DNA of 64,000 nt from contig JAJFJV010000017.1 of assembly GCA_021773635.1 (NCBI GenBank), positions 62,001 to 126,000 of the forward strand, read 5' to 3'. Shown here one piece after another: positions 10,201-22,705 of this stretch. Source of the stretch: Gammaproteobacteria bacterium (GTDB lineage Bacteria > Pseudomonadota > Gammaproteobacteria > HK1). The position numbers were made by a program, and so were the translations under genes. Within the stretch, counting starts at the first letter, position 1; every line of letters begins with the position of its first letter. The notes beneath the pieces were generated by a model. It saw nothing but the letters and a program-made list of their open reading frames with translations. It searched no databases and had not been told where the DNA came from.

Positions 10201-11092
10201 CGGTGGCGAACTCGATCCCCACACCCTGCCGGCGCTGGATTTCTATTGCACCGAATTCAGTTATGGCGATCGCTATCTGGGTACTGTGCGACTATCGACC
10301 GAGCCCGTTTCAGAAGGCCTGAAGGTGAATAATCTTGAAATTCTGGCCGAGGGCTTCAAGGTGCAATCGAGCGGCATCTGGAGCCACCTGGAAAATCTGC
10401 ACCGATCGCGCTTTCATATTCAGGCTACCAGCGAGGACCTCGGGCTGATGCTCAGCGCCCTGCAGTTTGAGGGCACGGCCAGCGGTGGTGACACCCTGAT
10501 CGACATGGAGGTCGGCTGGGTAGGCCCCCCCGCAGACTTCTCGCTGGCGACATTGCAGGGCAGTCTGCGCTTCAAGGCCAAACGCGGCCGCCTGCTGGAA
10601 GTCAAAGCCGGACCGACCGGAAGACTGTTTGGCCTGTTGAGTCTGCAATCCCTGCCACGACGCCTGAAACTGGACTTCAGCGACCTGTTCCGCAAGGGAT
10701 TCGCCTATGACCGCATCGACGGGGTATTTGCCCTGGAAGATGGTAATGCCTACACCAACAACCTGGTGATGGAGAGCCCTTCCGCGCGGGTTGAGGTCGC
10801 GGGGCGCACCGGACTACGTACCGAAGACTACGATCAGATCGTCACCGTCACACCACATATTTCCTCCAGCCTGCCGCTCGCCGGCGCCGCCCTCGGCCCC
10901 GCGGGCATCGGTGTCGGTGCCATCATCTGGCTGACCGAAAAGATGCTGAAAAAACCCCTGATTGATCGGGTCGCCCGCTACCAGTACACGGTTACCGGAA
11001 GCTGGACGGACCCGCTGGTAACCCGGATGCCGCGGGGAAGCTCCGGAAAAACGGTCCCCTCGAACAAACCCAACGATACCGCGACACCCTGA
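7205..11092 (+). CDS. yhdP: YhdP-family AsmA-like envelope protein
   Basis: A very large protein of about 1295 residues with one N-terminal membrane helix (MELLMVCIALVAISLVGARL) followed by a long beta-rich region, as in YhdP (E. coli, 1266 residues; DUF3971 and AsmA-like C-terminal domains). Members of the AsmA/TamB/YhdP group span the periplasm and take part in phospholipid movement to the outer membrane. The N-terminal ISGLLAQDVSIGTLNAHWRGWTP region and the C-terminal part with VTPHISSSLPLAGAALGP are typical. The start is the ATG before IRRCRILL; an earlier in-frame ATG at 7133 would add a non-conserved Pro-rich piece. A possible promoter (TTGTCG, 17 bases, TACACT at 7016-7044) overlaps the divergent relA start. 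Confidence 0.9.
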   Translation: MIRRCRILLTRLMELLMVCIALVAISLVGARLLLPDLTSFRPDIESAISGLLAQDVSIGTLNAHWRGWTPVIELADVRLTQGQTESAARFTHARVELNLFQTLQRGEPVLNTLSVGGASITVVRGSDRRIRIQGLGTQGGGTVQKNGEALVSFLLNQPFLGLESADIIWHDQLRKRAPLRLRQVQIRVRNQGSRHRAELSFRLPGKKDAQARLILDLKGTPESGEWAGNFYGQGTQLDLGRWPAAIRLGNIVPTGGIADFELWGKLKAGALLELNGEYGVDNLHLDNQGRTLKIHRSSAQLSYRGIGGGSGLALDNFHIATTDITPPPTRIELIWTEPEPDGRPMLRAQAGAIQLPTLLQILPPLLPAGIHLPDALLDARPQGELRTLRLETRAGGGYAFAGTISQLHTRATGKIPGISGLNGTLIGNDSGGTLQLTTGALSADLPLLYPTPLTFQSLNGNINWETSAQGWRINADDLRLTEADFKARLRASLLMETGAAAPLLDLQVRLQGGNEKTAKRYIPSRLLSPKLNNWLDRAIHAGRVESADLLYRGRTADFPFREHQGHFETRAQVHDGVLRYLPGWPEIADGKVTLLFEDASMDITGSHGRVFDSELSGVQVRIPDIWSNQPQLQVNGEARGAGSDGLRFLRESPLQSHFQRLLADLESTGNIHLGLRLDIPLASESEEPRVAGTIDLKNHAITSHRLGMRLDALNGQLEFDENGLQADELSALYLEAPITASIDTQSDGARATVLHLRGQAEPDFLGRLFTGLKLDASTVLDRIEGRADWKASLTLPIGASPDEAADSRLRVESDLQGLAINLPQPLRKDKDTAVASSLKLQLSETASQLGFHYGSQLQGLLSLRRDDKGTQLERGSIVLNGGEASLPDSKGLKLRGVFRRLVVGEWLNLFAATNSTGTTDAPAFFEQLQATSLHADSLELGGRSFQDQEIEFRPESSGGWRARVDGPTLAGDVLLPAAGSPAPLKIRLDRLALSPTVGSGGELDPHTLPALDFYCTEFSYGDRYLGTVRLSTEPVSEGLKVNNLEILAEGFKVQSSGIWSHLENLHRSRFHIQATSEDLGLMLSALQFEGTASGGDTLIDMEVGWVGPPADFSLATLQGSLRFKAKRGRLLEVKAGPTGRLFGLLSLQSLPRRLKLDFSDLFRKGFAYDRIDGVFALEDGNAYTNNLVMESPSARVEVAGRTGLRTEDYDQIVTVTPHISSSLPLAGAALGPAGIGVGAIIWLTEKMLKKPLIDRVARYQYTVTGSWTDPLVTRMPRGSSGKTVPSNKPNDTATP

Positions 11093-11098
11093 GACGCT

Positions 11099-12217
11099 AT
11101 GCCCCACTCCAGCCTTGGCCCTGATCCGGTAGCAGGCAGCCCCGTCATCGTCGGCCTTTCCGGTGGGGTGGATTCCGCCGTCGCTGCCCTGCTGCTGCGG
11201 GACCAGGGATTCCAGGTGCGCGCCCTCTTTATGAAGAACTGGGAGGAGGATGACGGGCAGGGGCACTGTGCGGCCGCAGAGGATGCGGATGACGCCCGCG
11301 CCGTCTGCACCCGACTGGGCATCGAATTTCATTCAGTTAACTTCAGCAGCGAATACTGGGATCTGGTCTTCGAACGCTTTCTTGCCGCCTACCGGGCCGG
11401 GCTCACCCCCAACCCCGATGTGTTGTGCAATCGGGAGATCAAATTCCACCACTTTCTCCAGCACGCCCTGGATTTGGGAGGTGCTTACATTGCCACCGGC
11501 CACTATGCGCGCCGGGAACAACGGGATGGACTCTGGCGACTGTTAAAGGCGGAGGATTTGGATAAAGACCAGAGCTATTTCCTGCACGCCATCGACCAAC
11601 GTGCGCTGGCTCACACCCTGTTCCCGCTGGGCACACTCAAGAAGGGCGAGGTCCGCCGGCTAGCGAAGGCGGCGCAAATTCCCGTGCACGCCAAAAAAGA
11701 CAGCACTGGAATCTGCTTTATAGGGGAACGTCCCTTCCGTGAGTTTCTCGGCCGCTACCTGGCCCCCAATCCCGGCCCGATGGAAACCCCGGAGGGCGAA
11801 GCCGTAGGTCATCACGAGGGCCTGATGTATTACACCCTCGGCCAACGCCGCGGCCTCGGTATTGGCGGGCGGGCAGGCAGCAGCGGTACACCCTGGTATG
11901 TCGCCGCCAAGGACGAAAGCCGCAATACCCTCATAGTGGTACAGGATCGCGAGCATCCACTGCTTTACAGCCAGCAGCTGGAGGCCGGTGAACTGCACTG
12001 GATTGCGGGCCAAACACCCCGACTACCCCTTGAGTGCCATGCCAAAACCCGCTATCGCCAAGCCGATCAGGCCTGCCGTACGGAGGCACTGAAAGATGGC
12101 CGGGTACGCGTTTTATTCGACCAGGCTCAATGGGCGGTTACCCCGGGGCAGTCGGTGGTTTTCTATCGTGGTGACGAATGCCTGGGGGGAGGCACCATCG
12201 AGAACGCCCGGGCATGA
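11099..12217 (+). CDS. mnmA: tRNA-specific 2-thiouridylase MnmA
   Basis: A 372-residue MnmA (TrmU) that puts sulfur on U34 of tRNA(Glu), tRNA(Lys) and tRNA(Gln). Seen directly: the ATP-binding PP-loop VGLSGGVDSAVAALLL near residue 18, the first catalytic cysteine in NPDVLCNREIKF, and the second in STGICFIGERPF, which together form the persulfide/disulfide pair. Length and domain layout equal the E. coli enzyme (368 residues). It starts six bases after yhdP and its stop overlaps the hflD start (ATGA), the same mnmA-hflD order found in enterobacteria. Confidence 0.96.
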   Translation: MPHSSLGPDPVAGSPVIVGLSGGVDSAVAALLLRDQGFQVRALFMKNWEEDDGQGHCAAAEDADDARAVCTRLGIEFHSVNFSSEYWDLVFERFLAAYRAGLTPNPDVLCNREIKFHHFLQHALDLGGAYIATGHYARREQRDGLWRLLKAEDLDKDQSYFLHAIDQRALAHTLFPLGTLKKGEVRRLAKAAQIPVHAKKDSTGICFIGERPFREFLGRYLAPNPGPMETPEGEAVGHHEGLMYYTLGQRRGLGIGGRAGSSGTPWYVAAKDESRNTLIVVQDREHPLLYSQQLEAGELHWIAGQTPRLPLECHAKTRYRQADQACRTEALKDGRVRVLFDQAQWAVTPGQSVVFYRGDECLGGGTIENARA

Positions 12218-12846
12218 ACCAGAAGATTGCGGACAGGGAACGGGTGCTCGCCCTTGCCGGATTGTTTCAGGCGGTGTCGCTGGTACGCGCCATCGCCCAT
12301 GAGAGTCACTGTCTGGAGGCGCCCATGGCCGCCAGCATCGAAAGTCTGTTCCGTTTTGATGCGGTGGACGCCGCCGCTGTCTTTGGCGGCATCCGTGGCG
12401 TGACCCATGGCCTCGAGGTATTGCAACAGCAGTTGGCCGGGCGTGCCTCGCGGGACCTGGAAATATCGCGCTACACCGCCACGGTGATGCACCTGGAGCG
12501 CAAACTTGGCCGCAACGACCAGCTGCTCGACAAGATCCATCAAGGTATCGTTGCCACCGAGCGCCAGGCCAGTCATTATCACCCGGGTCACGATGCGGTT
12601 ATTGCCGGTCTCGCGGAAGTTTATCGGGGCACCGTGGGCAGCCTGTTTCCCCGTGTACTGGTGCGCGGGGAACGCAACCATCTGGAACTGCCGCGCAATG
12701 CCGAGCGCGTGCGCGCATTGTTGCTGGCCGGGATCCGCGCCGCCGTACTATGGCGTCAGCTGGGAGGTCGCCGCATCGCTTTGATTTTCGGCCAAAAGGC
12801 CATGGCCGAAATGGCCGCCCACCTCGCGGCACAGGTAGGCCCATGA
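12214..12846 (+). CDS. hflD: High-frequency lysogenisation protein HflD homologue
   Basis: A 210-residue, mostly helical protein of the HflD (YcfC) family. In E. coli HflD is a peripheral inner membrane protein that interacts with lambda CII; its normal cell role is unclear. The family pattern ALAGLFQAVSLVRAIAH near the N-terminus and KLGRNDQLLDKIHQGI in the middle are visible. The start chosen gives an ATGA overlap with mnmA; a longer frame beginning at 12178 has no family support. The stop also overlaps the following lipoprotein gene by ATGA. Confidence 0.9.
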   Translation: MNQKIADRERVLALAGLFQAVSLVRAIAHESHCLEAPMAASIESLFRFDAVDAAAVFGGIRGVTHGLEVLQQQLAGRASRDLEISRYTATVMHLERKLGRNDQLLDKIHQGIVATERQASHYHPGHDAVIAGLAEVYRGTVGSLFPRVLVRGERNHLELPRNAERVRALLLAGIRAAVLWRQLGGRRIALIFGQKAMAEMAAHLAAQVGP

Positions 12847-13553
12847 CCCCTTGCCGCTCACTCACCCTGCTGATCCTACTTTGCCTGTTGCTTGCCGGCT
12901 GCAATACCACCCCCCCCTCATCCGATGTGCCCGCCAAACCCTTCAATGTCCGTCAGCTGGGTAAATCCGATATCGATAACGTCGCCGAGGTACATTTGGG
13001 GGAGGTGCTCGCCCATCTGGAAGCCTTGATGCTCAAGCTCTATCGACGCAATCCACGAGAACTGGCCAAGGGCGCCGGCGGCACCCCGGAAACTGCGGTG
13101 CAGGCGGCCTTCGGCCCCGTCCCGGTGGGCAGCCTGTCCGCGCTCCAGGGGAAACGGGGAACCGCCGCCATACAACTTGCCTTCGATAATAATTACCACG
13201 GGGACCGCGTATTCGCCTTTGGCGTTGGTTTGCAACAGATGATGCTCACCGCCTATAACAACAAGCGGGAATTTTTCCTGACCGACGAACTGGACCCGCA
13301 GAAGCTCTACAACAGCGCGCGGAATCTGGAAATCGCCGCCTGGAAGCTACATAACGATCGCAGGCCCGATGGAGCGCTTTATTTGCTCAGCGACTCCACC
13401 GGTAACGAACCACGCAACCTCAGCTACGAACGACTGTTTGGCAAACTCATTGCAACCCAGGACGCGCTGGCAAAAATTATTGCCGGCCACCGCAGCCGTA
13501 CCATCCGCCAAATCATCCAGCGCCTGGCGGGGGCGGTATTTCTACCTATCTGA
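12843..13553 (+). CDS. Predicted lipoprotein of unknown function
   Basis: A protein of about 236 residues that starts with a clear lipoprotein signal peptide: MTPCRSLTLLILLCLLLAGC, with the lipobox LLAG before the cysteine. The residue after Cys is Asn, so outer-membrane sorting is likely. The mature part has a Thr/Pro/Ser linker, then a mixed alpha/beta domain without motifs I recognise (TAYNNKREFFLTDELDPQKL and ARNLEIAAWKLHNDR are the most distinctive stretches). The ATG overlaps the hflD stop (ATGA), so it is the last gene of the mnmA-hflD unit. A much longer frame from 12750 runs through hflD and is rejected because it would destroy the signal peptide. Confidence 0.85.
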   Translation: MTPCRSLTLLILLCLLLAGCNTTPPSSDVPAKPFNVRQLGKSDIDNVAEVHLGEVLAHLEALMLKLYRRNPRELAKGAGGTPETAVQAAFGPVPVGSLSALQGKRGTAAIQLAFDNNYHGDRVFAFGVGLQQMMLTAYNNKREFFLTDELDPQKLYNSARNLEIAAWKLHNDRRPDGALYLLSDSTGNEPRNLSYERLFGKLIATQDALAKIIAGHRSRTIRQIIQRLAGAVFLPI

Positions 13554-13572
13554 AGCGGTAATCCACAACCTT

Positions 13573-13597
13573 TTGCCAAGTCTGCAAAACTTGGCAA
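13573..13597. promoter_or_regulatory. Palindrome upstream of the etf-mcd-acuI genes
   Basis: A perfect 8-base inverted repeat TTGCCAAG / CTTGGCAA with a nine-base centre. It sits in the 157-base gap after the lipoprotein gene and about 115 bases before the EtfBA start. No T-run follows on either strand, so it is not a canonical terminator. It could be an operator for a regulator of the acyl-CoA module or a weak hairpin at the end of the previous operon. Confidence 0.35.
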
Positions 13598-13710
13598 TCA
13601 ACCTTCCCTGCGAAGCCAGATAGACGTCGAATATCGCGTCTGGTCGGCGATGTACACTGACTCTATACTCTGCCCAATAACAACCTGGTGTCGCATAGAA
13701 AGCCAAATAC

Positions 13711-15522
13711 ATGTGTTCTGAATCAGACGACAACATCAACCCCCTGCGCATCGCTGTACTGGTGAAACAGATCCCCGCCCTTGAGGGCATAAGCCTGGAC
13801 AAGAACGGGCGCCTGGTGCGTGAGGGAGTGGAGCTGGAGATGAACCCCTATTGTCGCCGCGCGGTAGCCCAGGGGGTAAAACTGGCGCGTGCCGGCAAAG
13901 GCCACTGCACCGTATTTACCATGGGTCCACCCGCGGCAAGAGATGTCCTGAAAGAGGCGCTGGCATGGGGTGCCGATACCGGGGTGCTGCTGAACGACCC
14001 GGCCTTTGCCGGCGCTGATACGCTGGCCACCGCCCATACACTGGCAGAAGCAATCCGCCAGCGGGGGCCCTTTGATCTCATCCTGCTTGGGCGAAACTCG
14101 CTGGATGCAGACACCGGCCAGGTGGGCCCGGAACTGGCTGAACTGCTGGGGCTGCCCTTCCTGGGTCCGGCACGAAAGCTGGAACACACCGCCAATGCGC
14201 TCAAACTCCGCTGCGAGCACGACGACGGCTGGATGGAAGCCTCGGTCAGTTTGCCGGCGGTAGTGTCGGCGGCCGAGCGCCTGTGTGCTCCCTGCAAGGT
14301 CCCGCGGGAAAAGTGGAGCAGCAACCTTGACGACCATATTTCCACCCTCAATGCCGCAGCCCTTGGCAAAGGCCCATGGGGCAGTGCCGGTAGTCCTACC
14401 CGGGTGGGCGACTCGCGAACGATCCCGGTGGAACGGAGCCCGGTGATGCTCAACGGGTTGATTGACGAACAAGTAAAGGCGGTGGTGCATCTGCTGGAGG
14501 CACGCGGAGTGTTCGCAGAGCCATCCCATGTTGCTTTGAGCGAAGTACCTGCCAAGCAAGCTGGCGAGCAAACAGTGGTTGTGCTGCTGGAGCCAGGCCA
14601 ACACAGGCCAAACCAGGAATGTTGTGGCACCGCGGCCTTGCTGGCGGCAGAAATTGGCGCTGAGGTAACTGCCTTCGTGGCCGAAAAGATGTCGCCCGGC
14701 ACACTCGGCGGCTGGGGAATAGACCGGGCCATTCACCTGCACGGCAGTGACGTGGATGAGGATATCGCGCATGCGGTGAGCGATTGGGCCCAGAGCCATC
14801 AGCCGTGGGCAATCATTGCACCATCCACCCAGTGGGGGCGAATAGTGGCCTCACGTATCGCGGCCCGACTGCAGGCGGGGTTAACCGGTGATGCAATTGC
14901 CCTGGAGGTGAGGGAAGGTCGTCTGGTGGCCTGGAAGCCTGCCTTTGCCGGCATGCTGGCAGTAGAAATTCTGTGCACCTCCCCGGTCCAAATGGCTACT
15001 GTGCGACCGGGTGCCCTGCCCCTGCTCCAGCCGCGCAAGGCGACGGCCAGAATAGTGGAACAGCGCATTGCTGCGGATTCCCGGATATCCATTCACCGCC
15101 GCACCCAAAATGACGAAATCGATGCATTGGCCAATGCCCGTACCGTCATTGGTGTCGGCATGGGGGTTCCACCCGATGAATACGATGAACTCGAGGAACT
15201 CCAGGAAGTGCTGGGTGCGGAACTTGCTGCCACCCGCAAGGTCACGGATAGGGGTTGGCAGCCACGGTCCCGCCAGATCGGTATTACCGGACGTGCTATC
15301 GCCCCGCAACTCTATCTGGCCCTGGGATTGAGCGGCAAGTTCACTCACAGTGCGGGGATACGCAATGCCGCTACGGTACTGGCCGTAAACACGGATGAGG
15401 AAGCGCCCATTTTCGAGTTTGCCGATATCGGCATGGTGGCCGACTGGCGTGAAGTCATCGGACCGCTGGCCGAGGCACTGGCCGAGGTACTCCCCCCCCA
15501 ACCTGGACTAGAGAACAGCTAG
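13711..15522 (+). CDS. Fused electron transfer flavoprotein (EtfB-EtfA)
   Basis: A 603-residue protein that joins both ETF subunits in one chain. Residues 15 to about 260 match EtfB/FixA (IAVLVKQIP at the start, then GRNSLDADTGQVGPELAELL), and residues from about 285 match EtfA/FixB, including the C-terminal FAD-binding part with APQLYLALGLSGKFTHSAG and APIFEFADIGMVADW. ETFs carry electrons from acyl-CoA dehydrogenases to the quinone pool or the reverse. Usually etfB and etfA are separate genes; here there is no stop or frameshift between them. It is followed after 14 bases by malonyl-CoA decarboxylase and then by an acryloyl-CoA reductase-like gene, which points to acyl-CoA metabolism. The partner dehydrogenase is not in the window. 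Confidence 0.88.
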   Translation: MCSESDDNINPLRIAVLVKQIPALEGISLDKNGRLVREGVELEMNPYCRRAVAQGVKLARAGKGHCTVFTMGPPAARDVLKEALAWGADTGVLLNDPAFAGADTLATAHTLAEAIRQRGPFDLILLGRNSLDADTGQVGPELAELLGLPFLGPARKLEHTANALKLRCEHDDGWMEASVSLPAVVSAAERLCAPCKVPREKWSSNLDDHISTLNAAALGKGPWGSAGSPTRVGDSRTIPVERSPVMLNGLIDEQVKAVVHLLEARGVFAEPSHVALSEVPAKQAGEQTVVVLLEPGQHRPNQECCGTAALLAAEIGAEVTAFVAEKMSPGTLGGWGIDRAIHLHGSDVDEDIAHAVSDWAQSHQPWAIIAPSTQWGRIVASRIAARLQAGLTGDAIALEVREGRLVAWKPAFAGMLAVEILCTSPVQMATVRPGALPLLQPRKATARIVEQRIAADSRISIHRRTQNDEIDALANARTVIGVGMGVPPDEYDELEELQEVLGAELAATRKVTDRGWQPRSRQIGITGRAIAPQLYLALGLSGKFTHSAGIRNAATVLAVNTDEEAPIFEFADIGMVADWREVIGPLAEALAEVLPPQPGLENS

Positions 15523-15536
15523 CGACAAGACCACTT

Positions 15537-16949
15537 ATGGCTTCACGGAAAAATGGAACCGGCCTGCTGGAACGCACCCTGCGACGTTTTCGTCGCGCCT
15601 GGCGCGGGACCGGCTATGGCACCCCGCTGGAACCTTTCAGTCCCGGGCTAAACACTGCCGATATCAAACGGCTGCACCGCCAGATCGGCGCCTGCCTGGA
15701 AGCCCGGGGAGGGGAAGTCTCCGCCCGGGCGCGTGCGGCTCAGCTGGGAGAAGCCTACCTGGAACTCAACCCTGCGGGACGACAGCGCTTTCTGGAGGTA
15801 CTGGCACAAGACTACGGAGTGGATCAAACAAAGGTGGGAGAGGCCGTCGCGAGCTATCAGCATGCTTCCGACGAAGATGCACGTCGAACGGCGGAAAATG
15901 CGCTGCGCACCAGCCTGATGGCACCGAGAATCCACCTGTTGAGTCTTTTTAATGCCCTCGATGACGGGGTCAAGTTTCTGGTAGATTTGCGCGGAGAACT
16001 GAGAAGCTTCGCACGCAGTGACCCGGAGCTCGCGGCCCTGGATGCAGAGCTCAGCGCAAGGCTTGCATCGTGGTTCGATGTAGGCTTTCTGACCCTCCGG
16101 CAGATCACTTGGGAAAGCCCCGCATCACTGCTGGAGAAACTGATTGAATACGAGGCAGTGCATGCCATCGATTCCTGGGAGGACCTGAAAAAACGTCTGG
16201 ATTCCGACCGACGCCTGTATGCCTTCTTTCATCCCAATATGCCGGATGAACCCCTTATTTTTGTTGAGGTGGCACTGGTTCGCGGCCTTGCAAGCAGTAT
16301 TCAGCAATTGTTGGACACCGATACCCCGGCGCTCGAAGCCGAGACCGCCGATACCGCCATTTTCTATTCCATATCCAACTGCCAGCCGGGGCTGGCAGGC
16401 ATCAGTTTTGGCAACACCCTGATCAAAAGGGTGGCCAGTGACTTGGCCCGAGACCTGCCGCAACTGAAAAATTTCGCCACCCTGTCGCCTCTGCCCGGCT
16501 TTCGTAAATGGCTTGATGCACAATCCAGCGAAACCCTGGATCCATTAATCGGGACCAGTGATGGCAACCGTGTTCGTGAACTGGCCGAGGCAGAGAACAC
16601 TGTCAGCGCCCTTCATACCCTGCTGGGGAAGGAGGACTGGCCCGATAACGAGCCAGTAGCAAAGGCACTCGAGTCAATAATCATACCGCTGGCAGCTCAC
16701 TATCTCCTCAATGAACGCAGAGAAACCGGCGCACGGGATCGGGTGGCTCATTTTCACCTCTCTAACGGAGCCCGCATCGAACGCATCAACTGGCTTGCCG
16801 ACACCTCGGAACGGGGCCTCCGAAACGGGGCAGGCCTGATGATCAACTACCGCTATGTACTGCGGTACGTGGAAGAAAATCATGAGGCCTATTGCACCGA
16901 TGGGCAAATTACGGCGACATCAGCCGTCCGTAAACTGCTTCAAAGATAG
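15537..16949 (+). CDS. Malonyl-CoA decarboxylase
   Basis: A 470-residue malonyl-CoA decarboxylase (malonyl-CoA to acetyl-CoA plus CO2). The N-terminal half is the helical oligomerisation domain; the C-terminal half is the GNAT-like catalytic domain with FYSISNCQPGLAGISFGN, TLSPLPGFRKWL and the late HFHLSNGARIERINWLAD, where the conserved catalytic Ser and His lie in family members. Length agrees with bacterial enzymes. It is the middle gene between the fused ETF (14-base gap) and the AcuI-like reductase (9-base gap), so the three are almost certainly one transcript. A role in clearing malonyl-CoA or in a C3-acyl-CoA route is inference. Confidence 0.92.
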   Translation: MASRKNGTGLLERTLRRFRRAWRGTGYGTPLEPFSPGLNTADIKRLHRQIGACLEARGGEVSARARAAQLGEAYLELNPAGRQRFLEVLAQDYGVDQTKVGEAVASYQHASDEDARRTAENALRTSLMAPRIHLLSLFNALDDGVKFLVDLRGELRSFARSDPELAALDAELSARLASWFDVGFLTLRQITWESPASLLEKLIEYEAVHAIDSWEDLKKRLDSDRRLYAFFHPNMPDEPLIFVEVALVRGLASSIQQLLDTDTPALEAETADTAIFYSISNCQPGLAGISFGNTLIKRVASDLARDLPQLKNFATLSPLPGFRKWLDAQSSETLDPLIGTSDGNRVRELAEAENTVSALHTLLGKEDWPDNEPVAKALESIIIPLAAHYLLNERRETGARDRVAHFHLSNGARIERINWLADTSERGLRNGAGLMINYRYVLRYVEENHEAYCTDGQITATSAVRKLLQR

Positions 16950-16958
16950 CGGGAAACG

Positions 16959-17954
16959 ATGGATAGCAACTTCAGGGCACTGCTACTCGAAGAAGGCACC
17001 AGCGGCATCTGCGCCTCTATCCAACAGCTTGACGAGAGCCAGCTCCCCGATGGCGACGTCACTATCGCCGTGGAATATTCCAGCCTTAACTACAAAGACG
17101 GCATGATATTGCAGGGGCTTGGGCAGCTGGTGCGCCGCTATCCTCACGTGCCGGGCATCGACCTGGCTGGCCGGGTCATCGACAGCCAAAGTCCCGACTA
17201 TCGGCCCGGCGATCGCGTCGTACTCACCGGCTGGCGCGTAGGCGAAACCCATTGGGGTGGCTACGCAGAACGGGCCCGGGTACGCAGTGAATGGCTGATT
17301 CCCCTCCCAGCGAGCCTCGACTGCCGTACGGCCATGAGTCTGGGGACCGCAGGAATTGCCGCCATGCTCGCAATTCTGGCGCTGGAGGATTATGGGTTGC
17401 GACCAGATGCTGGTGAGGTACTGGTAACCGGAGGTGCTGGCGGCGTGGGCTCCATTGCCATCGCCTGCCTCTCCGCCCTGGGCCATGCAGTGGTAGCGTC
17501 CAGCGGCCGACCCGAAGCGGAAAGCTATCTCAAAGGACTCGGGGCTGAACGGATTGTACCGCGTGCGGAGCTGACCCGGGCTCTGGAGCACCCGCTGGAA
17601 AGCGAACACTGGGCCGGCTGCGTGGATACCGTAGGGGGTGACACCCTGACCCGGGTGCTCGCCGAAACCGCGCCCCACGGGGCCGTTGCTGCCGTCGGTC
17701 TGGCAGGAGGTCAACATTTCAGCAGCAGCCTGTTTCCCTTCCTGCTACGCGGCATTGGCCTGCTGGGAATAGACAGCACTACCTGTCCACGGGCACGTCG
17801 TCTGCAGGCCTGGGAGCGACTGGCCCAGGATCTGCCCAGGGCCCGGTTGGATACGATCACCCGGGAGGTAAGCCTTGATGAATTGCCACAGCTGGCAAAG
17901 GCGATTCTGGCAGGCCAGGTGCGTGGCCGGGTAGTGGTCAATGTTGCAGGCTAA
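16959..17954 (+). CDS. acuI: Acryloyl-CoA reductase / YhdH-type quinone oxidoreductase (AcuI-like)
   Basis: A 331-residue zinc-free medium-chain dehydrogenase/reductase of the YhdH/AcuI group. Family marks: SSLNYKDGMILQGLG near residue 43, PGIDLAGRVIDS, then GDRVVLTGWRVGETHWGGYAE, and the dinucleotide-binding loop VTGGAGGVGSIAIACL. AcuI enzymes reduce acryloyl-CoA to propionyl-CoA with NADPH and detoxify acryloyl-CoA in DMSP or 3-hydroxypropionate metabolism. Placed directly behind malonyl-CoA decarboxylase. The exact substrate cannot be fixed from sequence, because the same fold includes general quinone oxidoreductases. An imperfect 8-base inverted repeat follows the stop but without a T-run. 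Confidence 0.85.
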   Translation: MDSNFRALLLEEGTSGICASIQQLDESQLPDGDVTIAVEYSSLNYKDGMILQGLGQLVRRYPHVPGIDLAGRVIDSQSPDYRPGDRVVLTGWRVGETHWGGYAERARVRSEWLIPLPASLDCRTAMSLGTAGIAAMLAILALEDYGLRPDAGEVLVTGGAGGVGSIAIACLSALGHAVVASSGRPEAESYLKGLGAERIVPRAELTRALEHPLESEHWAGCVDTVGGDTLTRVLAETAPHGAVAAVGLAGGQHFSSSLFPFLLRGIGLLGIDSTTCPRARRLQAWERLAQDLPRARLDTITREVSLDELPQLAKAILAGQVRGRVVVNVAG

Positions 17955-18023
17955 CGCGCGGTTGCCCGGGGAGATGCCGCCCGATGCAACCGCAAATATA
18001 GCCGGATGTTAGACCGTGGCAGC

Positions 18024-18054
18024 AAAAAAAAGGGCTGGCGATAGCCGCCAGCCC
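18024..18054 (-). terminator. Rho-independent terminator of the truncated haemoglobin gene
   Basis: On the minus strand a 9-base GC-rich stem (GGGCTGGCG/CGCCAGCCC, five-base loop) is followed directly by eight T residues. It lies about 30 bases after the stop of the truncated haemoglobin gene. The plus strand has no T-run after the stem, so it serves mainly the minus strand. Confidence 0.9.
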
Positions 18055-18082
18055 CCCGATATTGCAGCGATGCGTGCAGTTG

Positions 18083-18463
18083 TTATCGTCCCAGCACATC
18101 CTTGCGAGTGGTTTCTGCAATGGCAGCAACCTCGGCGATCAGATCATCGGCCACGCCCATTTCCTTCAGGGTGTTACCCAGATTTTCTACCACCGCATCG
18201 AAATGGCTGTCATTGAGCCCACGCTCCAGCAGATGTGCATGCCCCTTGCGCATATCCATACCCGTATAGCCATTGGGACCACCGAAGGCCATAGTCAGAA
18301 AGGCCTTCTGCTTGCCTGACTGTTTGGTCATGTCGGTGTTGTCAAAAAAGTAATTGATGCGATCGTCCGCCAGCACCTTCGGATAAAACTTGTCTACCGC
18401 AGCGTCCACCGCGGCCTGACCACCAAGGCGCTCATACAGGGACAGATTGTTGTCTTCAGCCAT
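18083..18463 (-). CDS. glbN: Group I truncated haemoglobin (TrHbN)
   Basis: A haem protein of about 126 residues with the two-on-two globin fold. It aligns well to group I members: FYPKVLADDRINYFF holds the B10 tyrosine, GGPNGYTGMDM is the conserved loop, and the first His of MRKGHAHLL is the expected proximal haem ligand. Such globins bind O2 and often act as NO dioxygenases. The ATG at MAEDNN is preferred because GGAG lies nine bases before it; an earlier ATG (18478) has no such site. The gene stands alone with its own terminator. Upstream, the AT-rich stretch around 18510-18555 holds a TATAAT-like box but no convincing -35. Confidence 0.93.
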   Translation of the reverse strand: MAEDNNLSLYERLGGQAAVDAAVDKFYPKVLADDRINYFFDNTDMTKQSGKQKAFLTMAFGGPNGYTGMDMRKGHAHLLERGLNDSHFDAVVENLGNTLKEMGVADDLIAEVAAIAETTRKDVLGR

Positions 18464-18633
18464 TGCTACGCTCTCCATACATTTAATTAATCGGAATCGC
18501 CGCCTGGCTGCTGCGACGTGCGGCTTATTATATAGACAATATGCATGTTATAGGAACCCCAAGATTTCGGGGGTCTGCGCGCGGGCAGGCTAATCCCCCA
18601 TTGAGTTCAGGGGAATTGAGGCCATAATACCAA

Positions 18634-18794
18634 GGAGTCTGTCGAACTTAGGGCTGCTCTGCTGCGGAAAAGCCATTTTGGCCATATTTCCCGGTCCTTT
18701 TCGTTTAATAGTCGGGCTATTGGCCTCAAACGACCGGGAAATCCGTCTCAAAATGGCTTCCCCTCACTACGAGCGCCTAAATCCGACAGACTCC
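18634..18794. repeat. MITE-like inverted-repeat element, type 1 (161 bp)
   Basis: A noncoding segment bounded by 19-base terminal inverted repeats: GGAGTCTGTCGAACTTAGG on the left and, read on the opposite strand, GGAGTCTGTCGGATTTAGG on the right (17 of 19 identical). The pairing continues inward in blocks (for example AAGCCATTTT and TTTCCCGGTC recur in inverted order), so nearly the whole element could fold into one long hairpin. It fills most of the 413-base gap between the haemoglobin gene and the following plus-strand gene. No ORF is present. I see no clear target-site duplication. Confidence 0.7.
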
Positions 18795-18876
18795 AAAAGG
18801 CTGGAAATACAGGGTGTTTGGCAAAGCAATCACGGGATAGCGTGACAGCCGAAAATGATCGCGGGGGGCGAGCTTG

Positions 18877-19803
18877 GTGAAGGCGAATATAGAAAACGGG
18901 ACAAAACAGCAGGTCAAGGGCATTGAAAGCGTTTATTACGACGGCTACTGGATTCGTTATTACGAACCGCCACAGGACACCCTGGCGGCGAAGAAACATC
19001 TCATCGATGCCCTGACCAAGCGCCTCTTTCACCATACCGAGCCCGGCATCAACACCCCGGGAGAAAAGCTCGATGAGGCACGCTCAGCCTACGAACAGGA
19101 AGAGGATGCAACCCGCAAGCGCGTAAATGGAGCCATGCTCGCCGGGGCCCTGTTCAACCGGGCTACCGACATCTTCACCATGGTGGTTGAGCTGGAGCAA
19201 AAAGGGGTACTCATCAGCCGTCAGAATGAACTGATGAGGCAATGCGGAGACTATTTTCAAGAGGCACTGGAACTCGGCAAGATGGTCCGCCATTACAGTG
19301 GCCACGAGGGTATTGACGAGCTCTGGGGGGAACCACTAAAGGCCTTTTTGCTACCGGTGGCCGATTTTTACGATAGCCGTTATCTGAAAATCGCCCAGGC
19401 CATGCGTGACATCGATCTGGTGATGAAACAACTGAAAAAAACGCTGTGCAAGGAGCCGGCATACACCACTCTCAAACCCCTTTTTCGCGAACTGGCACTA
19501 GAGGCCAAGACGGTTTGTGAAACCCTGCGTAAAGATCCGGTGATGTTCCAGTTATGGCCACGTTTCGTGGCCGCGGGAGAGGCAGTACTGGGCTTTGTAC
19601 CCGAAACAACAGCGGGAAAGATCCCGCGGGCACGCAAAGACGCCGGGCTGCGGATAATCCAGGAGGCCAAGGCACTCATAGGTTATCTCGCCAGCGCCCG
19701 CGTCCCCATGGCAAAAAGTACTACCAAATTTGTGGCCCGCTGCGATGATTACCTGGAGCAGTATGGCAAGCCCGGAAACAATCATTCCGGTCGTGCCGCC
19801 TGA
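18877..19803 (+). CDS. Conserved-looking protein of unknown function
   Basis: About 308 residues, soluble, mainly helical and charged, with no signal peptide or membrane helix. I do not recognise the family. Distinctive stretches are GIESVYYDGYWIRYYEPP near the N-terminus, FNRATDIFTMVVELEQKGV, and ELGKMVRHYSGHEGIDELWG. There is no ATG near the start; GTG (18877) and the TTG just before it are the candidates, both preceded by a G-rich ribosome-binding site. It is followed, tail to tail, by korB with only 15 bases between. Codon use resembles the neighbours, so it is likely a real resident gene. A helical scaffold or regulator is possible, but nothing supports a specific function. Confidence 0.75.
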   Translation: MKANIENGTKQQVKGIESVYYDGYWIRYYEPPQDTLAAKKHLIDALTKRLFHHTEPGINTPGEKLDEARSAYEQEEDATRKRVNGAMLAGALFNRATDIFTMVVELEQKGVLISRQNELMRQCGDYFQEALELGKMVRHYSGHEGIDELWGEPLKAFLLPVADFYDSRYLKIAQAMRDIDLVMKQLKKTLCKEPAYTTLKPLFRELALEAKTVCETLRKDPVMFQLWPRFVAAGEAVLGFVPETTAGKIPRARKDAGLRIIQEAKALIGYLASARVPMAKSTTKFVARCDDYLEQYGKPGNNHSGRAA

Positions 19804-19818
19804 AGCATCGGAGCTTCG

Positions 19819-20844
19819 CTACTTAACCGTCCAGGTTTCGCCTGAATGCAACAGATTCCGCAGATCCCCGGCACCCCTTAACTCCATCGCCTGTTCCATT
19901 TGCTGCTCCAGCATGCCGTCATAAGTCGCTGATTCCACTGCCCGGAATACCCCTATCGGCAAGGGAAAATTCGGTCGTTCCATGCTGGCCAGGGCAAAGG
20001 CATAGGCCGGTGAATGGTGGTTTTCGTTGTGCACTGCGATATCCGCAGTAGAAATATCCGCACCATCCGCCAGGTCTATGACCGCGGGAACACCGGAGTC
20101 GATACGTATGCCCCGCCGCCGTCCCTCACTGCCGGTGACCAGCGGTTGACCATGTTGCAGTCTCAGCCCCGCATCGACACGCTGTTTTTTGTCCTCCAGT
20201 TCATCCCATTCTTTGTCATTGAATACCGGGCAATTCTGCAGGATTTCTATAAAGGAGGTGCCGCGGTGCTCCTGTGCGCGCCGGAATACATACTGCATAT
20301 GCTCGGCATCCACATCCACGGTACGGGCCACAAAGGTAGCCGCCGCACCGAGGGCAAAGGAGAGTGGGTCAATGGGATGATCGATGGAGCCCAGCGGGGT
20401 GGATTTGGTCTTCATCCCCACCCGTGAGGTAGGCGAGTACTGGCCCTTGGTCAAGCCGTAGACACGATTGTTAAACAACAGGATATTGACGTCCACGTTG
20501 CGCCGGATGATATGCAGCAGATGGTTGCCGCCAATGGCAAGGCCATCACCATCACCGGTCACCACCCACACTGACAAATCCGGATTGCTGGCCTTGATAC
20601 CGGTGGCAAAGGCGGGGGCGCGGCCATGGATGGTGTGAAAGCCATAGGTATCCATGTAATAGGGGAAGCGGCTGGAGCAGCCAATCCCGGACACAAAAAC
20701 TACTTTCTCCGGGGACAAACCCAGCTCGGGCATAACTCGCTGGATGTTGGCCAGAATGGAGTAATCACCACAGCCCGGACACCAACGTACGGTCTGGTCA
20801 CTGGTGAAATCCTTACGCGTTAACTGTGCGGCGGGAGTGGCCAT
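19819..20844 (-). CDS. korB: 2-oxoglutarate:ferredoxin oxidoreductase beta subunit (KorB)
   Basis: A 341-residue thiamine-pyrophosphate-binding beta subunit of a 2-oxoacid:ferredoxin oxidoreductase. Near the N-terminus RWCPGCGDYSI and SGIGCSSRFPYY carry cluster-type cysteines, and the TPP/Mg site is GDGDGLAIGGNHLLH followed by NNRVYGLTKGQ. A further conserved Cys is in LQNCPVFND. Together with the alpha subunit it interconverts 2-oxoglutarate and succinyl-CoA with ferredoxin; direction depends on physiology (oxidative TCA variant or CO2-fixing reductive TCA). Its ATG overlaps the korA stop (TGATG). No ferredoxin gene is adjacent. Confidence 0.92.
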   Translation of the reverse strand: MATPAAQLTRKDFTSDQTVRWCPGCGDYSILANIQRVMPELGLSPEKVVFVSGIGCSSRFPYYMDTYGFHTIHGRAPAFATGIKASNPDLSVWVVTGDGDGLAIGGNHLLHIIRRNVDVNILLFNNRVYGLTKGQYSPTSRVGMKTKSTPLGSIDHPIDPLSFALGAAATFVARTVDVDAEHMQYVFRRAQEHRGTSFIEILQNCPVFNDKEWDELEDKKQRVDAGLRLQHGQPLVTGSEGRRRGIRIDSGVPAVIDLADGADISTADIAVHNENHHSPAYAFALASMERPNFPLPIGVFRAVESATYDGMLEQQMEQAMELRGAGDLRNLLHSGETWTVK

Positions 20845-22682
20845 CAGGAATCATCCTCCGAAGACAGAATTTCATCGATACGTTGGCGAATTTCGCCAAC
20901 CTTGAAGGGTTTGCCCTGAGTCTTGCTCATCACCTCGGCGGGCACGAGGAACTCGGCCCGCAACAAGCGGGTCAAGTGGCCCAGGTTGATCTCCGGCACC
21001 AGGATACGGCGGAAATTCCCCAAAATTTCCCCCAGATTCGGGGGAAAGGGATTGATGTGGCGCAGATGGATACGCGAAACGTCCAGACCCTCTGCCCGGG
21101 CCGCCTCCACCGCCGTGGTACTCGCACCCCGGGTCCTACCCCAGCCCACCACCAGCAATTCACCCTGCTCATTGCCAACCACCTCGAGCGGCGGGATATC
21201 AGCAACTATGCCAGCCACCTTCTGGTCCCGCAGGTGCATCATGCGTTCATTGTTGTCCGGGTCGTAGGATACATTGCCGGTATTTTCTTCCGTGGAAAGG
21301 CCGCCAATACGATGCTCCAGACCCGGCGTACCGGGCACTGCCCAGGGTCGTGCCAGGGTTTTGGGATCACGGCGATAGGGTTGAAAACTTTCCGGTTCAG
21401 GCAGTGGTGGAATACTCACCCGCGGCAAAGATTCGATATCCGGAATTAACCACGGCTCAGTACCGTTTGCCAGGTAACTATCGGATAGCACCACCACCGG
21501 CGTCATGTATTTCACCGCCCAGCGGAAGGCCTCAAAAACAGTATGGAAACAATCTCCCGGGGACGAGGCAGCAAGCACCGGCATGGGGCTGTCTGAGTTA
21601 CGCCCGTACAAGGCCATGGGAAGGTCCCCCTGTTCTACCTTGGTAGGCATGCCAGTGGAAGGCCCGCCACGCTGAATATCAAGGATAACCAGCGGCAGCT
21701 CGGCCATGACCGCGAGGTTGATCGCCTCCTGCTTGAGGGCCAAACCGGGACCACTGGTACAGGTGACGGCAAGACTCCCCGCAAAGGCAGCACCGATAGC
21801 GGCACTGCAGGCGGCAATCTCGTCTTCCGCCTGCATGGTCTTGATACCAAAGTGACCGTAACGCGCCACCTCGTGAAGAATATCGCTGGCCGGGGTAATG
21901 GGATAGGCACCGAGAAACACCTGGCGATCCATCTGTACCCCGGCGGCCACGATGCCCCAGGCAAAGGCCGCATTACCGGTAATGTTCCTATAGGTTCCCG
22001 ATGGAATTTTTGCTGCCGGAACCTGGTAGGAGGTGGGGAGCAACTCCGTGGTCTCGCCGTAGGCATGTCCTGATTCCAGGGCACGCAGGTTGGCTTCCCG
22101 CACCTCACCCCGGAAGCGCCCTCGCAACCAGCGCTGGGTAGGGTCCAGATCACGGCCGTACATCCAGAACATGATGCCGAGAACAAAAAAGTTCTTGCAG
22201 CGGTCGATATCCCGGCTACCGAGATCGATGCCCTCCAGCGCCTTGCGGTTGAGTTGGGTGAGGGGAAGTTCCACTACGTTAAAACGGTCACGCAGCCCCG
22301 GCAGTGGACTTTCCTCGTACTCGGCCCGTGCCAGCGCCCTCTTCTTGAAGGCATCCTGGTTGACGATGAGGGTCCCGCCGGGGCGCAGATCCGCGATGTT
22401 GGTCTTCAGCGCCGCGGGGTTAAAGGCCACCAACACATCCGGCTGATCAGCCGGCGTGTGTACATTGCGTGAGGCAAAATGGATCTGAAAGCCGGAGACA
22501 CCGGCCAGAGTACCGGCAGGGGCACGAATTTCTGCCGGATAATCCGGCAAGGTAGAGAGGTCGTTCCCGGCGAGCATGGTCGACTCGCTAAACTTCCCTC
22601 CCGTTACCTGCATACCGTCGCCGGAATCTCCGGTAAAACGGATGGCAATTTCTTCAAGCTCAACAACCTGCTTTTTCGCCAT
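20844..22682 (-). CDS. korA: 2-oxoglutarate:ferredoxin oxidoreductase alpha subunit (gamma-alpha fusion, KorA)
   Basis: A protein of about 612 residues with the gamma domain at the N-terminus (RFTGDSGDGMQVTGGKFSES) fused to the alpha pyrimidine-binding domain (GAYPITPASDILHEVA, then MQAEDEIAACSAAIGA). This fused two-subunit layout is that of aerobic-type OGOR (KorAB). The second ATG (MAKKQVV) is preferred: GGGGGAG is nine bases upstream of it but almost touches the first ATG. The pair forms a two-gene operon. A MITE-like element lies just upstream, within 25 bases of the start, so its insertion may affect expression. Confidence 0.92.
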   Translation of the reverse strand: MAKKQVVELEEIAIRFTGDSGDGMQVTGGKFSESTMLAGNDLSTLPDYPAEIRAPAGTLAGVSGFQIHFASRNVHTPADQPDVLVAFNPAALKTNIADLRPGGTLIVNQDAFKKRALARAEYEESPLPGLRDRFNVVELPLTQLNRKALEGIDLGSRDIDRCKNFFVLGIMFWMYGRDLDPTQRWLRGRFRGEVREANLRALESGHAYGETTELLPTSYQVPAAKIPSGTYRNITGNAAFAWGIVAAGVQMDRQVFLGAYPITPASDILHEVARYGHFGIKTMQAEDEIAACSAAIGAAFAGSLAVTCTSGPGLALKQEAINLAVMAELPLVILDIQRGGPSTGMPTKVEQGDLPMALYGRNSDSPMPVLAASSPGDCFHTVFEAFRWAVKYMTPVVVLSDSYLANGTEPWLIPDIESLPRVSIPPLPEPESFQPYRRDPKTLARPWAVPGTPGLEHRIGGLSTEENTGNVSYDPDNNERMMHLRDQKVAGIVADIPPLEVVGNEQGELLVVGWGRTRGASTTAVEAARAEGLDVSRIHLRHINPFPPNLGEILGNFRRILVPEINLGHLTRLLRAEFLVPAEVMSKTQGKPFKVGEIRQRIDEILSSEDDS

Positions 22683-22705
22683 GGTTGGCATGCTCCCCCT
22701 GTTAA

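Follow-up and report, generated by a model that had tools for sequence, protein, structure and literature searches.

Why the genome of an uncultured gammaproteobacterium should encode an electron-transferring flavoprotein (ETF) as a single chain, directly followed by a malonyl-CoA decarboxylase (MCD) and a putative acryloyl-CoA reductase of the AcuI kind, is the question raised by the locus described here. The window analysed, 64,000 nt of contig JAJFJV010000017.1 (positions 62,001 to 126,000), contains at positions 13711–17954 three open reading frames (ORFs), all on the plus strand and separated by gaps of 14 and 9 nt. A sequence-only reading had placed a fused EtfB-EtfA, an MCD and an acryloyl-CoA reductase there, pointing to their tight spacing and shared C3 acyl-CoA chemistry; its coordinates proved exact, the families were confirmed with Pfam and NCBIfam, and the MCD and YhdH/AcuI assignments bear out the chemistry. 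The layout is operon-like, and the three genes are predicted to be co-transcribed. The features considered are the following:

13711..15522, plus strand: single-chain EtfB-EtfA fusion of 603 aa (Pfam ETF twice and ETF_alpha; solved bifurcating-ETF relatives; AlphaFold2 model)
Within 13711..15522, plus strand: the two halves of the fusion, EtfB at about residues 12–265 and EtfA at about residues 285–600
13999..14013, plus strand: codons of PAFAG (residues 97–101), which aligns with the NAD motif RXFXG and has Pro instead of its Arg (motif from the available part of PMC9232219)
14104..14130, plus strand: codons of DADTGQVGP (residues 132–140), the b-FAD motif of bifurcating ETFs (motif from the same source)
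15537..16949, plus strand: MCD of 470 aa (Pfam MCD and MCD_N; solved MCD structures)
16959..17954, plus strand: putative YhdH/AcuI-type NADPH acryloyl-CoA reductase of 331 aa (TIGR02823 over cut-off; 5gxe/5gxf, 1o89)

The trio was found intact and in identical order in all three genomes of the genus, namely that of the window (G000, 2.55 Mb, 99.6% complete) and two others (G001 and G002), whose proteins are 76–80% (ETF), 80% (MCD) and 79–81% (AcuI) identical to those of the window. Across the genus dN/dS was 0.15–0.16 for the ETF, 0.09–0.11 for MCD and 0.13–0.14 for AcuI (dS 0.58–1.44), indicating that all three genes are under purifying selection. Two insertions have occurred in or beside the trio. 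In G002 an element of 145 nt, its ends forming 12-nt inverted repeats, is inserted between the ETF and MCD genes (L047:9816-9960); since a second copy, 87% identical, is present in the same genome (L185:466-611), it resembles a small mobile repeat. In G001 the insertion (L121:562-9516) spans about 9 kb, contains frames of 1137, 361, 408 and 1038 aa, and separates the AcuI gene from a globin gene that follows it in the window; beyond this insertion the order globin, 18874-type gene, KorB, KorA (see below) resumes (L186). Since the order is kept in 3/3 genomes despite both insertions, and the genes are under purifying selection, the trio does not appear to be accidental, a conclusion that draws on three genomes only; the co-occurrence check proposed by the sequence-only reading therefore speaks for a maintained association.

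Each product could be assigned to a family. In the fusion the Pfam ETF domain is matched in two stretches (184 bits) and the ETF_alpha FAD domain once (82 bits), all in one frame. The MCD matches Pfam MCD with 354 bits (cut-off 23.2) and MCD_N with 72 bits (cut-off 22.4), and the structures 4ksf, 4ks9, 4ksa, 2ygw and 4f0x with E values of 4e-95 to 3e-73; its likeness to the bacterial enzymes 4ksf, 4ks9 and 4ksa is near full-length (E 1.4e-88 or better), whereas its gene neighbours differ, a MatB-type synthetase not being recognised among five of the six AMP-binding matches of G000. The segments YSIS and FHLxNGA, which we take to be the site of the catalytic Ser and His, align with these three structures and are present in all three genus genomes. 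The third protein, with Pfam ADH_N and ADH_zinc_N, passes the cut-off of the YhdH/acrylyl-CoA reductase subfamily (TIGR02823, 423.8 bits against 297.25) and narrowly misses that of the AcuI equivalog NF051456 (417.7 against 440 bits). It matches Ruegeria AcuI (5gxe, 5gxf; E 3e-116) and E. coli YhdH (1o89; E 3e-106) over the full length, differing from them in its operon partners and in that slight shortfall. The AcuI-like proteins of all three genomes carry GGAGGVGS and SSGR, the Arg of the latter presumably reading NADP; the protein is a candidate NADPH-dependent acryloyl-CoA reductase. An Rfam scan of window positions 11000–20000 gave zero matches.

The ETF is of an unusual kind. By sequence, its best solved relatives are the bifurcating ETFs 5ol2, 7koe, 4kpu, 7qh2 and 6fah: the EtfB half reaches E 1.1e-37 with 5ol2_B against 1.9e-16 with human 1efv_B, and the EtfA half 6e-39 with 5ol2_A against 2e-27 with 1efv_A. 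The AlphaFold2 model (pLDDT 86.2, pTM 0.87) shares the general fold of the canonical ETF (1efv); Foldseek ranked 5ol2_A first with canonical chains close behind, identities to the bifurcating EtfAB proteins being 24–34%. According to the available part of PMC9232219, in bifurcating ETFs DGDTAQVGP binds b-FAD and reportedly does not occur in non-bifurcating ones, RXFXG serves NAD, SPT stands at the EtfB anchor, and Arg205, a position taken by Arg or Lys, lies at N5 of b-FAD. In the fusion all six b-FAD motif positions mutated in that study (D, D, T, Q, V, P) are identical, SPT is present, and Lys409 aligns with LctC Arg205, as counted along the printed alignment. These features recur among 25 aligned fusions (the window, two of the genus and 22 others introduced below), with DxDTxQV in 25/25, GP next in 22/25, Lys at the Arg205 position in 22/22 rows with letters there, and Asp394 and SPT conserved. 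The NAD motif is kept only in part, PAFAG retaining Phe and Gly; its Arg occurs in 2/25 aligned fusions, and Pro stands there in 20/25.

By motif, then, the fusion belongs with the b-FAD (bifurcating-type) ETFs, with which it shares the b-FAD motif, the SPT anchor and the basic residue at N5. Unlike them it is one chain, all solved ETF structures found here being two-subunit carriers; moreover it has lost the NAD Arg, its dehydrogenase is unlinked, and the recognition loop, NEPRYATLPNIMKAKKK in canonical 1efv_B, is replaced by RLCAPCKVPREKWSSN. The motif alone is no proof of bifurcating activity, because Clostridium propionicum has an ETF that does not bifurcate and yet is a close relative of bifurcating ones (PMC9232219, available part). 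A CxxC metal site (C192, C195) was also considered and set aside, Cys being present in only 16/25 and 19/25 rows. The same genome encodes a separate EtfB with the loop NEPRYPTLPNIMKAKKK, which is close to 1efv_B (E 2.5e-89, far from the value of the fusion's EtfB half) and hence of the mitochondrial kind, and the separate etfBA adjoins the sole ETF-QO match. The fusion is therefore an additional, different ETF; both this canonical system and the b-FAD motif had been missed by the sequence-only reading.

With these elements in hand, we tentatively favour, at somewhat less than an even chance, the view that the three genes form one operon clearing and salvaging three-carbon acyl-CoAs. AcuI would reduce toxic acryloyl-CoA to propionyl-CoA with NADPH, the conversion described for AcuI in PMC3338564 (available part), where E. 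coli yhdH mutants are reported as hypersensitive to acrylate and, to a lesser degree, to 3-hydroxypropionate (3-HP). The propionyl-CoA could feed a methylcitrate operon, found in two of the three genomes (G001 and G002), while MCD would decarboxylate malonyl-CoA to acetyl-CoA. The single-chain ETF, working alongside the canonical ETF/ETF-QO, would carry electrons for a dehydrogenase whose gene lies elsewhere. The likeliest inputs would be C3 compounds of the 3-HP or acrylate type, together with ACC-derived malonyl-CoA; the former would split into a reductive branch via AcuI and an oxidative branch ending in malonyl-CoA, the trio clearing both C3-CoA ends. Such a division resembles 3-HP use as set out in the available part of PMC6572756, either reductive, via acrylyl-CoA and propionyl-CoA to the methylcitrate pathway, or by an oxidative route; malonyl-CoA is there theoretically derived from malonate semialdehyde or through 3-HP-CoA, and for this reason mcd was considered in Cupriavidus. 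What leads us to this view is the order kept in 3/3 genomes through both insertions at low dN/dS, the full-length matches of AcuI and MCD to solved relatives, the separate canonical ETF/ETF-QO of the genus, and the prp operon for propionyl-CoA in G001 with a cluster of the same kind in G002.

In G001 this prpE-prpB-prpC-prpD cluster (L184) has PrpB, PrpC and PrpD passing their NCBIfam cut-offs and PrpE at 768 against 955 bits; in G002 (L185) PrpD is present and frames of matching size stand in prp order, the names having been tested on G001 only. No PrpD match was obtained in G000, 99.6% complete as it is, through either loss or an assembly gap. As to the dehydrogenase, each genus genome has four acyl-CoA dehydrogenase matches (PF00441), none linked to the trio; none was found on the window's contig, the four of G000 lying on other contigs, in agreement with the earlier suggestion that none is nearby and that the partner of the ETF is encoded elsewhere. 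One of the four is of FadE type, scoring 1092.9 bits with FadE_coli (cut-off 1300) and exceeding the cut-offs of two broader models; another, of 594 aa, adjoins frames of 378 and 786 aa that, judged solely from their starts and sizes, are probably thiolase and FadB.

Some observations weigh against the salvage operon. No sigma-70-like promoter was predicted upstream of the trio, the counts of that scan being at chance level. With PrpD unmatched in G000 and the carboxyltransferase-family matches only two per genome, of AccA/AccD size, an outlet for propionyl-CoA is not seen there; the same two matches led us to drop a propionyl-CoA carboxylase by-product as the MCD substrate. Finally, co-transcription, the substrates, the direction of electron flow and the ETF partner are inferred, and a substrate class common to the ETF, AcuI and MCD is an assumption.

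The distribution of the parts differs from that of the whole. In 369 gammaproteobacterial genomes, an even draw from a larger group, the fusion was matched at E 1e-60 or better in three, all of this genus, and MCD in 35, as well as in 16/55 closer relatives. The fetched flanks of 38 MCD loci outside the genus (13 with wider flanks and 25 from the 369-genome survey with flanks of at most 1.5 kb, some MCD matches of the survey lying outside this set) held a fused ETF in 0/38 cases, and their AcuI matches were weak relatives of the medium-chain dehydrogenase/reductase (MDR) family only (26% in L111, 35% in L117). Identity between the genus MCD and its counterpart in a same-family genome (L002) is 59.7%, which fits vertical descent, and AcuI relatives in the family reach 59% in one genome (G006) and 41–45% in most others. 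Within the genomes searched, the trio is confined to this genus and is therefore, as far as searched, not a general pathway. Literature searches, judged largely from titles, retrieved no paper on the combination (the one in which all three enzyme names occur deals with gut lactate users) and, by title, none on MCD with AcuI in bacteria, so that the assembly of a one-piece ETF, an MCD and an AcuI, each with known relatives, looks new.

Single-chain ETFs as such also occur elsewhere. When 84,980 species genomes were scanned, 24 fused-ETF loci emerged, two of the genus and 22 others, the latter labelled Actinomycetota (20) or Chloroflexota (2) and mostly 46–57% identical; two cut loci, L068 and L069, showed 63% and 59% over about 235 residues. 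The frame is complete in 16 of these 22 loci; of the other six, four are truncated by the contig end, one is partly masked and one is frameshifted. These ETFs, from metagenome-assembled genomes (MAGs), have the same domain order in one frame as the genus fusion; unlike the genus trio, their fetched flanks contain MCD or AcuI matches in 0/22 cases. In each of nine such genomes, ETF_alpha was matched two or more times, which means a further EtfA besides the fused one. Among 99 ORFs within 3.5 kb at 20/22 loci, many of them shadow frames of high-GC DNA, no shared neighbour emerged, the top families, thiolase and amidohydrolase, counting only five each; acyl-CoA dehydrogenase was absent from the 25 of 79 neighbour families listed. 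One locus, L057, is titled as a Bifidobacterium breve MAG, a label that is probably wrong because its fused ETF hardly differs from the one in the Acidimicrobiia MAG L052 (tree branches 0.02).

A tree of 43 rows was built from 24 separate pairs and 19 of the 25 fusions, the six rows that were cut, masked or frameshifted being dropped. The fusions formed a single clade with 100/100 support, within which the genus members grouped together with equal support (100/100), the base being unresolved. As the remaining close relatives of the fusion belong to Actinomycetota and Chloroflexota, it was probably gained laterally by the genus; the direction of transfer is read from distribution only, because the tree leaves the position of the genus within the fusion clade unresolved. 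More distant single-frame ETFs of about 601 aa (about 32–33% identity), annotated 'FAD-binding protein', occur on Rhodococcus plasmids. There, unlike in the genus, the ETF adjoins a rubredoxin gene in an aromatic-degradation cluster, directly following and overlapping it (L180:7729-9791, L182:7723-9791). A rubredoxin partner for the fusion was discarded, the motif being found only in L180 and L182 in a scan covering the window, the 24 scan loci, the genus stretches L119-L122 and the Rhodococcus loci L180-L182.

Around the trio, a 267-aa frame at window positions 12750–13553 (plus strand), overlapping a DUF489 (HflD-type) gene, has no Pfam or NCBIfam match and is present in all three genus genomes (75–78%). 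Downstream, a 309-aa frame at 18874–19803 (plus strand, TTG start as listed), also lacking such a match, is 86% identical in G001 and G002. A two-subunit 2-oxoacid:ferredoxin oxidoreductase pair (KorAB) lies on the minus strand at 19819–22691, 1.9 kb from the trio; it is 92–96% identical across the genus, whereas the trio is 76–81%.

Other explanations have to be set against the salvage operon. Nearly as probable, at about one chance in three, is that the genes share a promoter and little else, MCD and AcuI being housekeeping repair enzymes beside which a laterally acquired carrier has landed. The trio is in one genus only, the fusion adjoins many gene kinds elsewhere and has its other close relatives in other phyla, and MCD occurs without it, all of which suits this explanation; what it accounts for less readily is an order kept across dS 0.58–1.44 and two insertions, though in three genomes. 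A malonate-utilisation module with MCD at its key step, as in mat operons, is the least likely of the readings considered. MCD is indeed present and conserved; yet no malonyl-CoA synthetase stands beside the trio, none of the AMP-binding genes of G000 adjoins it, and MatB was not recognised in five of the six AMP-binding matches of that genome, the sixth, weak, lying outside the scan. Three of these proteins reach 292, 272 and 235 bits with NF005702 (cut-off 558) and are better matched by other models, and for two more it is not listed. Of the C3 route first proposed for the trio, the acyl-CoA chemistry is supported; a malonate route is unlikely and, as far as searched, the trio is not a general pathway.

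The remaining alternatives concern the ETF. That it works as a bifurcating or confurcating two-FAD carrier that draws on a donor other than NADH and ties a C3-CoA redox step to ferredoxin is unlikely, although the b-FAD motif, Lys409 where PMC9232219 (available part) allows Arg or Lys, the conserved Asp394 and SPT, the bifurcating ETFs as best solved relatives and the nearby KorAB genes all point that way. The linkage to KorAB may be incidental, the dehydrogenase partner is unlinked, the Clostridium propionicum case shows how close a non-bifurcating ETF may come, and the Arg that has become Pro in the window belongs to a motif whose mutation abolished NADH use in A. woodii (PMC9232219, available part). 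Its fuller form, in which a single-chain two-flavin ETF would have given up NADH for another donor and would bifurcate or confurcate at a C3 acyl-CoA node linked to the ferredoxin pool of KorAB, is quite unlikely; if true, it would reveal an unstudied fused-ETF clade spread across Actinomycetota and Chloroflexota. We consider it very improbable that the ETF donates electrons for acryloyl-CoA reduction, as in the acryloyl-CoA reductase complex of Clostridium propionicum, with the neighbouring reductase as an accessory. The fusion does match AcrA and AcrB of NCBIfam in part, with 137.4 and 122.1 bits, which rank among its best partial scores, and one acyl-CoA dehydrogenase of G000 has AcrC as its sole listed match (237 of 640 bits); all these scores are far under the cut-offs (600 and 475 for AcrA and AcrB), no acyl-CoA dehydrogenase is linked, and the neighbouring reductase, an NADPH enzyme of the MDR family that retains its nucleotide motif, should need no ETF.

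Whichever role applies, a clade of one-chain ETFs that keep the b-FAD motif without the NADH arginine offers a test of which features are required for bifurcation, and the genus-specific putative operon a small, concrete gene set through which the function of such an ETF could be sought.

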